From a virus, in the IMG/VR virus record IMGVR_UViG_3300028765_000224, positions 1 through 43,476 of that record: a DNA stretch of 43,476 bases. One strand, written 5' to 3'. Each line of letters opens with the position of its first letter. Position 1 is the first letter of the stretch. A model generated the notes under the pieces. That model saw only the letters and a list, made by a program, of their open reading frames with translations. It had not been told where the DNA came from and ran no database searches. Below, one piece after another: positions 29,806 through 42,980 of this stretch. Made by a program: the position numbers and the translations under genes.

Positions 29806-30201
29806 ATGGATAAGTTCAAGTCAAATAACAACATCGTTTTTTCGAGCAAGTATCATGTTGTGTGGTGTCCGAAATATCGGCGCAGCGTGATCGTTGGTGA
29901 TATTGAGTTGCGGTTAAAGCAGATTGTCCGCGAGGTGTGCGGTGAGCTTGGGGCGGGAATAATCGAAATGGAAACGATGCCGGATCACATTCATTTGCTT
30001 GTCGAGGTTGACCCTCAATTCGGGATTCATCGGCTGGTAAAGCGCATCAAAGGGAGGTCGTCAAGGCTTCTTCGCCAAGAGTTCAAAAGCCTTAAATCCA
30101 GACTGCCCACGCTGTGGACTAACTCATATTTTGTAGCGACTGTAGGTGGTGCGCCATTGGCGATTATCAAGCAGTACATCGAACAGCAAAAATCAGCATG
30201 A
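29806..30201 (+). CDS. tnpA: IS200/IS605 TnpA (HUH Y1 transposase)
   Basis: A 131-aa protein with the HUH motif MPDHIHLLVEV (His61, His63) and the catalytic Tyr124 in IKQYIEQQ. It cuts and rejoins single-stranded DNA at the element ends ('peel and paste' transposition). Full length for the family and all key residues present, so probably active. The stop overlaps the tnpB start (ATGA). Confidence 0.92.
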   Translation: MDKFKSNNNIVFSSKYHVVWCPKYRRSVIVGDIELRLKQIVREVCGELGAGIIEMETMPDHIHLLVEVDPQFGIHRLVKRIKGRSSRLLRQEFKSLKSRLPTLWTNSYFVATVGGAPLAIIKQYIEQQKSA

Positions 30202-31552: not shown

Positions 31553-31740
31553 GTAATTTCCCAGATGGCCCTGACCATTCCGAGATTACGGCAATTCTGC
31601 CCGTTCCGCTATTGATGCCGCTATCGTGCAGCAGGAGGAGGCTCCTCATGCCTAACCTTCTTCGCCCTCCTTTTCCTCGCGTCTTCGGCTCTACAATCCA
31701 ATCCACCAAAGGAATAGATCATGAGTGCAGTCATGAGTGA
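31549..31740 (+). CDS. Possible small hypothetical protein
   Basis: A 63-aa frame starting in an ATGA overlap. The first 20 residues look protein-like; the rest is Pro/Arg/Leu-rich and unconvincing. It may be a real coupled gene or only a leader before the methyltransferase. It overlaps the next gene start. Confidence 0.3.
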   Translation: MSNFPDGPDHSEITAILPVPLLMPLSCSRRRLLMPNLLRPPFPRVFGSTIQSTKGIDHECSHE

Positions 31741-32755
31741 GTTGAAACCTTGCCCGTTTTGCGGAGGCGCAGAAGTAGTTCGCGTTGATTTTTACAAGTC
31801 GCCGCACAATTACGGAGACTCACTATCAGATTTTGTAATGTGCAATGGATGTGGATCTCATATTTCAAATATCGACTGTTTGGATTGCGAAGGCGGAAGA
31901 GATTGTGCTGAAATTTTGCATCCCGCGTTGCTCCTTATCAAAGGTGACAGCGCCAAAGTGCTGCGGACGGTTCCCGCCGAAAGCGTGGACTTGATCGTAA
32001 CATCGCCACCATATGCGGACCAACGTAAAAGCACTTATGGCGGGGTTCATGCCGATCACTATGTAGAGTGGTTCATGCCAATAGCGGACGAATTGCAGCG
32101 CGTTTTGAAGCCAACAGGCTCTTTCATTTTGAATATCAAGGAACGGGTCGTTGATGGCGAACGCCACACCTACGTGATGGAACTAATCATTGAAATGCGT
32201 AAACGTGGCTGGCTGTGGACGGAAGAATATATTTGGCACAAGCGAAATTGTTACCCTGGGAAATGGCCTAACCGCTTTCGTGACGCTTGGGAGCGATGCA
32301 TTCATTTCACAAAGCAAAAGCAGTTCGCTATGTATCAAGACGCTGTAATGGTTCCAATGGGCGATTGGAAGAATTCACGGCTCAAGGCATTAAGCGAAAC
32401 CGACCGCGTGCGCGATGAATCAAAAGTTGGCAGCGGCTTTGGAAAGAAAATTGAAAACTGGATAGGTCGGGAAATGGCTTACCCGGCGAACGTATTGCAC
32501 CTGGCGACAGAGTGCGGAAACAAAAAACACAGCGCGGCTTTCCCTGAAAGTTTGCCGGAATGGTTTATTAAGTTATTTACTAAGCCTGGCGATATGGTGC
32601 TTGATCCGTTTTCGGGGTCTGGTACAACGATGCGCGTTTCCCGCAACCTAGAGCGCAGTGCTATTGGCGTTGAATTGTCCGAGGAATATTGCGCTTTGAC
32701 GGCAGCGGAATTAGGACTTAAAAAATTGAAGGGCGGCATTTATGACGCCCCTTAA
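31721..32755 (+). CDS. Fusion of a Lar-like zinc ribbon and a DNA methyltransferase
   Basis: A 344-aa protein. Residues 8-62 resemble the Lar restriction-alleviation family (ELKPCPFCGGAEVV with C11 and C14, then CNGCGS at 41-46). Residues ~70-344 are a DNA methyltransferase: GDSAKVL, then LIVTSPPYADQ motif IV (94-98), and DPFSGSGTT motif I (295-302). The order IV before I is the beta class, which makes N4-methylcytosine or N6-methyladenine. The SPPY form is common in N4-cytosine enzymes but not decisive. It would modify phage DNA against restriction. ATG at 31721 with AAAGGAAT ribosome site. Confidence 0.87.
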   Translation: MSAVMSELKPCPFCGGAEVVRVDFYKSPHNYGDSLSDFVMCNGCGSHISNIDCLDCEGGRDCAEILHPALLLIKGDSAKVLRTVPAESVDLIVTSPPYADQRKSTYGGVHADHYVEWFMPIADELQRVLKPTGSFILNIKERVVDGERHTYVMELIIEMRKRGWLWTEEYIWHKRNCYPGKWPNRFRDAWERCIHFTKQKQFAMYQDAVMVPMGDWKNSRLKALSETDRVRDESKVGSGFGKKIENWIGREMAYPANVLHLATECGNKKHSAAFPESLPEWFIKLFTKPGDMVLDPFSGSGTTMRVSRNLERSAIGVELSEEYCALTAAELGLKKLKGGIYDAP

Positions 32756-37135: not shown

Positions 37136-37378
37136 GTGTGGCACCATTATTATTTTTTGTCATGCACGACCCTCTGCGGTGGCTAGTGGCTGCAAAAAAA
37201 CAGGGGGGGGACAGGTGTCGGCAGTCGACACTTTTCGATTGCAAGCCTAGTCTCCCCTCGCCATGTTGTCGGAAACGAATGGCAACATTAACGGATAGAA
37301 TTTTACTCGCGAATTGTTGTTGGACGTGTATATTTTTGAGTAATTTTTTGCTTGTCTGTGCGCAAACGCACACAGTAT

Positions 37379-37407
37379 TGACAAAAAAATTAGGGAATTA
37401 TATAGAT
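37379..37407 (+). promoter_or_regulatory. Strong sigma70-type promoter pointing into the methylase antisense strand
   Basis: TTGACA, 17-nt spacer, TATAGA. The -35 is perfect. It faces rightward, opposite to the methylase gene that follows, so it would make an antisense RNA unless it serves another purpose. Its -10 region is part of the 19-bp inverted repeat also found before the methylase start. Confidence 0.5.
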
Positions 37408-37411
37408 GACT
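37393..37411. repeat. 19-bp inverted repeat, left copy
   Basis: GGGAATTATATAGATGACT. An exact reverse complement lies at 37919-37937. The two copies bracket the adenine-methylase gene. Confidence 0.85.
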
Positions 37412-37416
37412 CCCTT

Positions 37417-37896
37417 TCACCGCGCTTTCCACATCTTACCGGGAAGGCCCGAGGTTTCTAGCGCGGCCACGTTCGTCGCGCCGTATGCGATGAAGATGCT
37501 GTCAGCATTATTGCCCTTGACAGGAAGCCCGGTTCCGGGGTCGAGGAAAGCGATGCGCCCCTTGTGGAATAAAATGCCGTCGAAGGTGTCCAGAACAGCC
37601 TCATGGAACCACTTCGCGCCAAGGCGCGGCGGGATTAGGGCAATGCCGTTGCCATGTTGCGCTAGGCGCGCAATCCACACGCGGGCGACCGCGCCGTATG
37701 GCGGATTAATCCAAACTCTCCCCGCCCATTCCTGCGATAAGCCGTCGTCCGCAAGCGTGAACCCTCGTGTCGCCAGTCGCATCGGCGCGTCACAGTTCGC
37801 GCAGGGGTCCAAGTCAAAGGTGCCGAGCGCCGAGACCAGCGCCAAAGGCGTCTGCCAATCGTCGCGGGTGGCTTCTGTCCGTGTCGTGAAACTCAT
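37417..37896 (-). CDS. Phage-type N6-adenine DNA methyltransferase (Dam, PF05869 type)
   Basis: A 159-aa protein with the family plan: DDWQTPLALVSALGTFDLDPCA near the N-terminus, WAGRVWINPPYGAVARVW (catalytic N-P-P-Y), and a C-terminal part with GIALIPPRLGAKWFHEAV. It methylates adenine, likely at GATC, to protect DNA or regulate promoters. AAGAAGG is a good ribosome site. The gene is bracketed by 19-bp inverted repeats, as a self-contained cassette between the VRR-NUC and primase genes. Confidence 0.88.
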   Translation of the reverse strand: MSFTTRTEATRDDWQTPLALVSALGTFDLDPCANCDAPMRLATRGFTLADDGLSQEWAGRVWINPPYGAVARVWIARLAQHGNGIALIPPRLGAKWFHEAVLDTFDGILFHKGRIAFLDPGTGLPVKGNNADSIFIAYGATNVAALETSGLPGKMWKAR

Positions 37897-37918
37897 TCGC
37901 TCAATCCTTCTTTGAGGT

Positions 37919-37937
37919 AGTCATCTATATAATTCCC
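37919..37937. repeat. 19-bp inverted repeat, right copy, also methylase promoter region
   Basis: AGTCATCTATATAATTCCC, the exact reverse complement of 37393-37411. Read leftward it contains TATATAGA, a likely -10 for the methylase gene 23 nt downstream. Confidence 0.85.
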
Positions 37938-37942
37938 AAAAA

Positions 37943-38374
37943 TTAATTGATTGGTGGAAACCAGTCGCTGATTATTTTTATTGCGTCATCGGGTGAGGAT
38001 GCGAAGCCAGCGATGCCGCCGGCCGCGCGGACGTTGTCAATGAATGTGATTTGCTCGGGTCGGCGCCGTCCGCCGCCAGTGCGCTTGACTTCGACTGCGG
38101 TGAAGACTGCGATGCGCGCGCCGACCATCTCGGGTGTGATTGTGATGGAGTGCCATCCGATGAGATCACTGGAGCCTGCCAACGGCGTGTTGTCGGGCTT
38201 GCTGAACCCGAGCGCGATCGGGCGCCCGAACGGGACAATGGCCGCGCCGTCGCTGCGCTTAGTGACCTTGCCGCCGCCGCTCGCCCACGCCATGCCGGTG
38301 TTGAGGCGGAACAGCGTGGTCGTGCGGGCGACGGCGAGCCAGATCGTGCGGAGGATTGGGGTTTCGCGTGTCAT
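37943..38374 (-). CDS. VRR-NUC nuclease
   Basis: A 143-aa protein with the VRR-NUC core: GSSDLIGW (Asp), FTAVEVKRTGGGRRRPEQ (E-x-K), and FIDNVRAAGGIAGFASSPDD at the end. This is the small stand-alone phage form of a PD-(D/E)XK nuclease acting on branched or Holliday-type DNA. The start overlaps the PAPS-reductase-like gene (4 nt). Residues needed for catalysis appear present. Confidence 0.88.
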   Translation of the reverse strand: MTRETPILRTIWLAVARTTTLFRLNTGMAWASGGGKVTKRSDGAAIVPFGRPIALGFSKPDNTPLAGSSDLIGWHSITITPEMVGARIAVFTAVEVKRTGGGRRRPEQITFIDNVRAAGGIAGFASSPDDAIKIISDWFPPIN

Positions 38375-40020: not shown

Positions 40021-40428
40021 TCAAAACGGCGCATCCGACTTAGCTGCTGGTGCCTGTGCTGGCGCAGCGGTATGCGCTGTTTGCGTTGCATCAGCAGGCT
40101 TCCCGCCAAGCATCTGCATGTTGTCCGCCATGATCTCGGTAATCGAATACTCGATTTCGTTTTTGATGTACTTGCGCGTCTCAAGCCGTCCCTCGACGTA
40201 TATCTGTCCACCTTTCTTCAGGTATTGCCCAGCAATTTCAGCAAGTTTCCCTTTGAAGATGATGCGATGCCATTCTGTCTTGGACTTCTTCTCACCAGAC
40301 CCCTTATCCTTCCACGACTCAGTTGTCGCCACGCTGGCAACTGTAATGGAATCGCCATTCGGCATTGTCTTCATATCGGGATCGCGACCGAGTGTACCGA
40401 TTACCTGCATTTTATTGAGTGATGCCAT
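40021..40428 (-). CDS. ssb: Single-stranded DNA-binding protein
   Basis: A 135-aa OB-fold SSB: MQVIGTLGRDPDMKTMPNGD, then KTEWHRIIFKGKLAEIAGQY and GGQIYVEGRLETRKY. The Ala/Pro-rich linker ends in DAPF, a shortened version of the acidic DDDIPF tip used to recruit partners. It coats ssDNA during replication and recombination. Overlaps the helicase stop. Confidence 0.95.
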   Translation of the reverse strand: MASLNKMQVIGTLGRDPDMKTMPNGDSITVASVATTESWKDKGSGEKKSKTEWHRIIFKGKLAEIAGQYLKKGGQIYVEGRLETRKYIKNEIEYSITEIMADNMQMLGGKPADATQTAHTAAPAQAPAAKSDAPF

Positions 40429-42929
40429 TATGCCCTCTGTTTGCGTGAATTAAAAGTGTGCCAAGCCCAACCCGATGAATATCCTTTTTGCGCAGCGTAT
40501 GCCTGAAGCTGCTCAAGTGTCCGCGCCTGTGCGATCTCGCGCCTGCGCGAGATCTGCGCCAGCTTGACCATGTCGTCGGTGATCTGCCCAAGCGTGCCGT
40601 CGACCACTTCTGCCTCTTTGCGGCCAGCGACAGGCATCTCGTGGCCGCATGCGGGACAGCATGGTTCTGGTTCGAAGACGTAGTAGCAGTTAGGGCACTG
40701 CGACAACTTGATTTCGTTGGTTGCTTGTTTCTTTTTTCCCTTCTTGCGGCCTTCGAGTGTCCATTCGCGGTCGGTGCAGGGAAGTCCGTGCTTTGGCACG
40801 AATTTTCCTTCTAGGATAGTGCCGACATTGCCAACGTGATCCAGCGCGAACGCTGGGCTATCAGTTCCATCTGGTCGCATAATGCGCCCGATCATCTGCA
40901 GAAACATCGTCAGCGTTCCTACGTGCCTGAGCATGATGCAGCATTTGAGTGCTGGCACGTCAAATCCCTCCGACACAAGGTCGACCACACAAATACCCTG
41001 TATCACTCCAGATGTGATCTCACGCACAACCTGATCGCGTTCAGCCTCCTTCATGCGCGGCGCGCCGACAAGCAACTTGAATTTGTATCCGGCCTGGCAG
41101 AACTGTTCAACGACGTGTTCAGCGTGATCTATGCGTGCGCAGAACACGACAGCGCGAACTCCAGGGCAGATCGCAGTATAGTGCTCAACAGCGTCACCTG
41201 TAATGACACGCTTATCCACTAATGCCGCAACCTCGTCGACATTGAGTTCACCGTCTTTGTTCGGTTTTAGCTTGGAGAAGTCGGGAATGACCTTGCCGGC
41301 GTACACAACGGGATTGATCAGCATTCCCCGCTCGATCAGCAACGACACCGGTGGACCAGTCACCAATGATTTGAAGATACCGCCATGATCGACGCCCATA
41401 CCAATACCGTCACCGCGCGCCGGCGTGGCGGTCACGCCCAGCGTGTTTTTTGCCGCCAACAGCGCAAAGACCTTCCCCCACTTATTGTTTTTTGTGACAT
41501 GGTGGGCTTCATCGAACACGACCAGGTCGAATTTGAATTTACCTGGCGTTTTCTTGAGCCGGATCAGCAACGTATCTACGCTCGCGACCTGAATCTTATG
41601 GTGCGGATTCGGCGTGAAGTGCGGACTGATCATGCCGTGCTGAATGCCGAGGTTGTGCAGCGCGCGGCTGGCCTGCATCAGCAATTCGTTGCGGTGAACA
41701 ATGATGATTGTTGAGTTGCCCTTGGCGGATGCGTTGGCGGCGATGTAGCTGAACGTGTAGGTGTTGTGCGTGACCGTGAAATCGCCGAGCATGAAAAGGT
41801 GATCACCATCGATCTCGAAGCCGTAGTAGTCGCCTTCACCGATTGGTTCAACATTGATGCCAGTGACAAGAACACTTTTCTTTTGCTGGCGTGGCGATGC
41901 AATACGGCGTGCTACTCTACACGGAATTATATCGACATCGCCATTGATATTTAAACGATAATAAGTACCAGAAAATCCAGTGCTTTTTATGCCTTTTTCA
42001 CATTGCATAACATAGGATGATAAACCAAGCGATCGCGCCAAATATGCAACATCATCGGCAAGACGTCGCTCTTTGAAAATCAAATCATAGGTACCATTCG
42101 AAAGATATCCATCGGTATCAACGATGCCAGCCAATATTTCAAGTCTTACTTCGCGAGAATTACATTTGTAATCGTCTGGAACATGTTTGTTTCCACGCAA
42201 ATGATAAAAATCAAGCGCATTAGCCATTCTGTTTGGATGATTACCACGGCCACGGCCATCTTCTGGATAAGAAACTATTCGATAAGTTGGACAAGATTTT
42301 GTAAACTCAGTTTCCACACGCATTTTGTGTGAAATTGCATATTCGCAAATTGCGTCAACAACTTCAAAATCAGCAGTGCTGATATGTGGAAATTTATTTG
42401 TCCCATCTCCAAGCCAAAGGCCGAGCATATATGGTGGTAAATGCTCATGAACATCACGTGGTTGAAATTCAATTCCGGTACGCCATCCTTTGGCGACATG
42501 CTTGAATGTTTTTGAAGATTTTAGATAATCAAGAACTGAGATGTTGCAAACTTCATCGCCGCCATACATCAACCCATCACCAGCAGTTACCGGGCTTCCA
42601 CCACTGATTTTTAGACTTAGAATATGGCTTTCATTGACGATGTATGGATCACCTTTTACTGGTGTCACACGGTAAAGATTCTCGCGGCCACGCGCAAGCG
42701 ATTGAACGGTACGCGCCTTGCTATCTGGACCAATGAGTAGGTCGCCAACAACAATATTCTCGACTGGTTTGACCGTTCCATCGTATAGCAAAACAGGCGT
42801 CCCACGCCCCAAGCACTTCCCTGCCCCGGTCGGCATCTGAAACAATACCGGTTGCAACTTCGACTTGAACGCGGCACGAATATCTGTCACTGCCACATCC
42901 TGATAATCCCGCAACACAATTGCTGCCAT
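40428..42929 (-). CDS. RadD/UvsW-like SF2 helicase interrupted by an intein
   Basis: An 833-aa precursor, 482 aa after splicing. MAAIVLRDYQ begins the helicase; the P-loop QMPTGAGK is split from its following Thr by the intein. Then DLVVFDEAHH (DEAH), LGVTATPARGDG (motif III), LVSEGFDVPAL and LQMIGRIMRPDG (motif VI). C-terminal four-Cys zinc ribbon (CPNCYYVFEPEPCCPACG). This matches RadD/YejH-like helicases that act in recombination repair and replication fork rescue. Start: AGGGAGA before the ATG at 42929. The stop overlaps ssb. Confidence 0.88.
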   Translation of the reverse strand: MAAIVLRDYQDVAVTDIRAAFKSKLQPVLFQMPTGAGKCLGRGTPVLLYDGTVKPVENIVVGDLLIGPDSKARTVQSLARGRENLYRVTPVKGDPYIVNESHILSLKISGGSPVTAGDGLMYGGDEVCNISVLDYLKSSKTFKHVAKGWRTGIEFQPRDVHEHLPPYMLGLWLGDGTNKFPHISTADFEVVDAICEYAISHKMRVETEFTKSCPTYRIVSYPEDGRGRGNHPNRMANALDFYHLRGNKHVPDDYKCNSREVRLEILAGIVDTDGYLSNGTYDLIFKERRLADDVAYLARSLGLSSYVMQCEKGIKSTGFSGTYYRLNINGDVDIIPCRVARRIASPRQQKKSVLVTGINVEPIGEGDYYGFEIDGDHLFMLGDFTVTHNTYTFSYIAANASAKGNSTIIIVHRNELLMQASRALHNLGIQHGMISPHFTPNPHHKIQVASVDTLLIRLKKTPGKFKFDLVVFDEAHHVTKNNKWGKVFALLAAKNTLGVTATPARGDGIGMGVDHGGIFKSLVTGPPVSLLIERGMLINPVVYAGKVIPDFSKLKPNKDGELNVDEVAALVDKRVITGDAVEHYTAICPGVRAVVFCARIDHAEHVVEQFCQAGYKFKLLVGAPRMKEAERDQVVREITSGVIQGICVVDLVSEGFDVPALKCCIMLRHVGTLTMFLQMIGRIMRPDGTDSPAFALDHVGNVGTILEGKFVPKHGLPCTDREWTLEGRKKGKKKQATNEIKLSQCPNCYYVFEPEPCCPACGHEMPVAGRKEAEVVDGTLGQITDDMVKLAQISRRREIAQARTLEQLQAYAAQKGYSSGWAWHTFNSRKQRA
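41763..42815 (-). mobile_element. LAGLIDADG intein in the helicase P-loop
   Basis: A 351-residue intein. Cys1 follows GAGK; the last residues are FTVTHN and Thr is +1. The endonuclease motifs are YMLGLWLGDG (129-138) and EILAGIVDTDG (226-236). Block B-like NESHIL is at 61-66; block F GDYYGFEIDGDHLFML is at 328-343. Insertion between GK and T of a Walker A is a favourite intein site. Splice residues and both LAGLIDADG helices look intact. AT-rich relative to the exteins. Confidence 0.92.
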
Positions 42930-42980
42930 AATATCTCCCTGCGCGGCACAAAATTCTATTCCGCACAAAACAATTTCAGT

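Follow-up and report, generated by a model that had tools for sequence, protein, structure and literature searches.

The window, i.e., the whole 43,476-nucleotide stretch of IMG/VR record IMGVR_UViG_3300028765_000224, belongs to a phage, as the major head, portal, tail-fibre, and helicase genes were found in it. A small gene of this phage, coding for a Dam-type adenine methylase, is bracketed by inverted repeats. The features of this region are as follows (strand in parentheses):

37378..37406 (+): promoter-like TTGACA-N17-TATAGA spanning the left junction, probably by chance (sequence, consensus scan)
37385..37392: left copy of the target-site duplication, 8 bp, AAAAATTA (sequence)
37393..37411 (+): left terminal inverted repeat GGGAATTATATAGATGACT, perfect over 19 bp
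37393..37937 (−): predicted transposase-less IS1595-like element (mobile insertion cassette), 545 bp (ends and duplication; no transposase in the records)
37417..37896 (−): cargo gene for a Dam-type DNA N6-adenine methyltransferase, 159 aa, NPPY motif (Pfam PF05869)
37905..37912 (−): probable ribosome-binding site of the methylase gene, AAGAAGGA (sequence)
37919..37937 (−): right terminal inverted repeat (GGGAATTATATAGATGACT inverted), perfect over 19 bp
37938..37945: right copy of the target-site duplication, AAAAATTA (sequence)

The initial annotation had reported a perfect 19-bp inverted repeat around the dam-type gene. This was confirmed at 37393–37411 (+) and 37919–37937 (−), as was the lack of GATC in the repeat. 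The arms extend imperfectly to 26 nt. None of 100 dinucleotide shuffles contained this repeat, and no further copies of the 19-mer within 3 mismatches were found elsewhere in the window. GATC is missing from the entire 545-bp cassette, compared with 225 occurrences in the window, which is not significant because only ~3 would be expected in the cassette. What had been overlooked is the perfect 8-bp direct repeat AAAAATTA, which abuts the cassette on both sides. The last three bases of its right copy (37943–37945) are the stop codon of an endonuclease-like gene (37943–38374), so the element sits directly behind a gene.

The methylase ORF matched the Pfam Dam family PF05869 (E = 1.9e-17, above the gathering score), and its score against TIGR01712 (phage_N6A_met), 61.4 bits, lies below the cut-off of 97.05. 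The protein shares ~50% identity with enzymes of Gordonia phages and no more than 49% with those of the nearest other viral contigs. The stop codon TGA lies 5 bp inward of the left repeat, and the gene has a start codon and a ribosome-binding site of its own, located immediately inward of the right repeat. It should be noted that the right terminal repeat contains an ATG (37922–37924), the same one at which the cargo starts in other cassettes. The methylase is probably expressed together with the surrounding genes of the same strand. Judging from its domain family and from the other cargo of the lineage described below, it probably modifies phage DNA against host restriction.

No transposase of this lineage was found in the window record or in its 67-kb relative L007, both of which are possibly incomplete. 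Within the window cassette, no transposase remnant was detectable, and the interior beyond the repeats matched no other element.

Elsewhere in the window, a TnpB-like gene (PF07282/PF01385; 30198–31250, +) is followed by a DNA methyltransferase gene (31721–32755, +), and both run opposite to the main gene direction. The match of L007 to the window ends at 30183, just before the TnpB gene. An apparent intein, CLGRGTPVLLYDGTVKPVENIVVGD ... FMLGDFTVTHNT, interrupts the ATP-binding loop GAGK/T in the helicase ORF (40428–42968, −).

Elements with the same ends in other records

The exact 19-mer was found in 104 stretches of IMG/VR viral contigs and in only 15 stretches of 257 Gb of bacterial and archaeal genomes. 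Viral contigs carry the repeats far more often than genomes do, a bias expressed as raw counts because the total bases of the viral collection are not stated. The view that all copies reside in phages was rejected, as some of the genome copies have a ParA gene or a NotI-type restriction gene next to them and no obvious phage genes around them. The sequence beyond the 19-mer varies between loci. Among GenBank phages, no cassette DNA was found and the transposase lineage was absent, the best match being 37.5%.

The fetched loci contained 85 distinct elements of 171–2500 bp when small variation of the ends was allowed and a perfect 8-bp duplication was demanded. Forty-three of them encode an IS1595-family transposase, whole or partial; the remaining 42, including that of the window, carry one or a few small genes and no transposase detectable at the threshold used. 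Thus, among the other elements with window-type ends, half carry the transposase, in other sequence contexts. Since this set had been selected on the duplication, the duplication test was repeated blind to the flanks. For this, each exact 19-mer was paired with the nearest inward-facing end and the flanks were ignored. Identical 8-bp flanks were seen in 43 of the 61 unselected pairs, compared with 0.11% in cross-pairs. The duplicated targets are 80% A+T (background 43%) and follow the symmetric pattern HWWNNWWD. Strong support for the mobile cassette proposed in the initial annotation comes from the terminal inverted repeats, from the duplication of an 8-bp target, and from the 84 further elements that share this type of end.

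The lineage transposases scored 187–209 bits against the IS1595 model NF033547 (cut-off 75) and matched PF12762 together with the zinc ribbon PF12760. The conservation of the acidic residues D138, D207, and E243 in their sequences fits a DDE enzyme. The intact proteins are 55–99% identical among themselves and at most 47.5% identical to the six relatives tested, which came from plasmids and one gut phage record. In the tree, all six outsiders fell on one branch (support 0.999) adjoining the deep lineage member L109. Many intact elements (L052, L042, L035, L002, and others) have a short basic C-terminal ORF (e.g., ...DRVLAFRPADKGQQAKKIERRMKRQ...) after the transposase gene, and this ORF frequently ends in the repeat.

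Matches to DNA-modification families were obtained for 12 of the 41 cargo ORFs scanned from transposase-less elements (~30%): seven N6/N4 methylases, two Mom proteins, one Dam (that of the window), one MT-A70, and one C5 methylase. Meanwhile, 3 of the 139 neighbouring ORFs in the same contigs, which are among ordinary phage genes, matched N6_N4_Mtase. The enrichment of the cargo over the neighbours has p = 1.3e-6, or 1.5e-4 if 8 neighbours are assumed (families not listed). DNA methyltransferases are also present in the transposase-bearing elements L135, L167, L198, and L161. In 14 of 42 cases, the ATG of the repeat is the actual or possible start of the main ORF, an automatic count that includes the non-coding strand of the window cassette. 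A DpdA-like reading of the L128 cargo was dropped because it had no Pfam, NCBIfam, or PDB support.

Origin and movement of the cassettes

Two elements preserve the traces of a lost transposase gene. In L129, transposase codons 1–11 are joined to codons 257–308 and run on into a methyltransferase, in the same layout as in the intact element L161. L177 has a C-terminal transposase remnant beside a methyltransferase 41% identical to that of L198, and its layout is like that of L198. These layouts indicate that cassettes are made by transposase loss from passenger-carrying elements.

The interiors of related elements differ more than their ends. L004, L060, and L076 are ~94% identical over their first 96 bp and 85–90% identical in the block comprising the transposase and the right end; the DNA separating the two blocks is unrelated. 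Likewise, L167 and L198 are 85% identical in the transposase part and 93% in 155 bp of the right end, and their methyltransferases belong to different families. Such shared modules with differing interiors indicate that cargo is exchanged between conserved modules; homologous recombination in the shared parts is our simplest guess as to how.

Intact elements and cassettes occur together in the same genomes. In a 97-kb phage record, a cassette of 274 bp and an intact element of 2025 bp have a rare end, GGGAATTATAGAGTTAACT, in common, and a 101-kb record contains an intact element and several cassettes, some of which have a common leader. Same-genome pairs with matching ends fit mobilisation in trans. 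The intact element and the cassette of the 97-kb record (L299 221–2245 and L067 1078–1351, respectively) were inserted into identical 8-bp targets, TTATTTTC, more than 30 kb from each other.

L002 and L066 are 94% identical over the whole length and occupy different targets. In the comparison of related phages proposed in the initial annotation, the only close relative of the window phage has the same insertion, and no relative with the same gene order and without the cassette was found. The search for the empty site of the window via the neighbouring PAPS-reductase-like and primase genes led only to this relative, which carries the insertion too. As this relative is nearly the same phage, the demonstration of an empty site comes from a sister cassette, that of L012: the phage L309, 75% identical to the L012 carrier, is without the methyltransferase cassette and has one uninterrupted target. 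No empty site was found for the Mom cassette L006, and none by blastn of joined flanks within the fetched loci.

The repeats could be ancient and the methylase by now a fixed phage gene, the cassette being an immobile relic of a transposon insertion, as the record without a transposase would allow. We consider this unlikely: both ends and the 8-bp duplication are perfect, indicating an insertion that is young relative to the pace of sequence decay, and phages commonly carry intact elements whose ends are compatible.

Two further readings of the repeats, both raised in the initial annotation, could be compared with the same set of elements. A gene bracketed by perfect inverted repeats might be phase-variable, flipped by a site-specific recombinase acting at the repeats. 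However, the cassette has the same orientation in the window and in its 67-kb relative (few records), as did each of several other insertions seen in 2–3 contigs; many unrelated genes are bracketed by the same ends, the 8-bp target duplications are a signature of transposition, and the lineage encodes a DDE transposase. No invertase is needed for any of this, and a non-systematic search among the window genes brought up no invertase gene. We therefore give inversion almost no credence. Paired inward promoters, by which the methylase gene would be controlled through sense and antisense transcription, are suggested by the AT-rich repeats and by the motifs of the left junction, TTGACA (37378–37383) and TATAGA (37401–37406) with a 17-bp spacer. 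Both motifs are indeed present, but the TTGACA is part of the target DNA, beyond the repeat and also beyond the duplicated 8 bp, while the −10 lacks its most conserved base and fails a consensus scan demanding its last T. The right repeat copy has only ~2/6 matches to a −35 at that spacing, and no −35 consensus was found at the expected positions in the flanks of 169 element ends. Promoter control by the repeats is thus very improbable.

Proposed mechanism and relation to known systems

The ends and the duplication make it very probable that the 545-bp stretch is a non-autonomous transposon, i.e., a mobile insertion cassette, of a distinct, mainly phage-borne IS1595 lineage, with an intact Dam-type methyltransferase gene as its sole cargo. 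The element was inserted immediately behind the neighbouring gene, past its stop codon, duplicating an 8-bp AT-rich target; before this, the site would read ACAAAAAAATTAATTGATTGG, with a single AAAAATTA. A DDE transposase acting in trans may have recognised the repeats and moved the cassette, supplied by an intact relative that resided in the same phage, in a co-infecting one, or in the host. Across the lineage, an IS1595 element with a passenger gene would lose its transposase gene and become a cassette, and cargo would be swapped between the conserved end modules. A wider proposal is that this IS1595-derived lineage with its cargo slot is a dedicated gene-exchange platform of phages, shedding single-gene cassettes and spreading anti-restriction DNA-modification genes; we regard the case for and against it as evenly balanced.

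How "moron" genes, e.g., orphan methylases, enter phages is mostly an open question, and the usual answer is illegitimate recombination. Minimal transposon cassettes whose ends are defined, and which have a target preference as well as a cognate transposase, would offer a concrete and testable route for some of them. The 19-bp repeat could serve as a tag for finding such genes, new anti-restriction genes are predicted as unknown cargo between the same repeats, and the system suggests a compact transposition tool for phages.

Single-gene cassettes moving between phages are also known from integrons, according to a report on gene cassettes in phage genomes (PMC9892861). The present ends differ in being transposon repeats with target duplications. 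No integron features were noticed at the window cassette, where attC was looked for non-systematically.

Mobile insertion cassettes, such as MIC231 of Bacillus cereus and the qnrD/qnrS2 mic, consist of two IS inverted repeats around a passenger gene without a transposase, and they are flanked by a target duplication; MIC231A1 is mobilisable in trans (PMC3913671). The window cassette likewise has IS inverted repeats around a passenger gene, no transposase, and a target duplication. On the features tested it is a mobile insertion cassette, its mobility being read from the sequence. The known examples belong to IS231 or are undefined, reside in bacteria and plasmids, and carry peptidase or resistance genes, whereas the present lineage is of the IS1595 type, occurs mostly in phages, and in up to one third of cases uses the ATG of the repeat.

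The IS1595 family (Siguier, Gagnevin, and Chandler 2009) shares with the present lineage the NF033547, PF12762/PF12760 transposase, A/T-rich 8-bp duplications, short terminal repeats beginning with GG, and passenger genes beside the transposase. Its member ISApl4 makes A/T-rich 8-bp duplications (PMC12561309), and PMC3129680, citing Siguier 2009, names the passenger-carrying "transporter IS" in connection with this family. On the side of the lineage, an IS1595-type DDE transposase, intact or partial, accompanies these ends in 43 of 85 elements, the duplication is of the family type (window AAAAATTA; 43/61; 80% A+T), and the repeats start with GG (GGGAATTATATAGATGACT, and GGGGATTATGTATTTGACAA in a related element of a Roseomonas plasmid). 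That Roseomonas IS1595 element (L304 1915–4518) is a related passenger-bearing bacterial element with a PIN-domain gene and the duplication TATCTTTA. Another IS1595 element, in the human-gut phage MT838557 (L307 1555–4495), has perfect 20-bp ends GGCAGTGAACACTAAAGTTA and the duplication AATACGAA.

The lineage differs from the family as described in that many members are without a transposase and carry one or a few small genes, often for DNA modification, and in that its ends and transposase modules are kept while the cargo swaps. No description of it was found in the open-access literature, subscription papers being outside the search. As far as that literature shows, and with ISfinder subgroups outside the comparison, the new elements are a phage-centred lineage, an exchangeable cargo slot, and a bias towards DNA modification.
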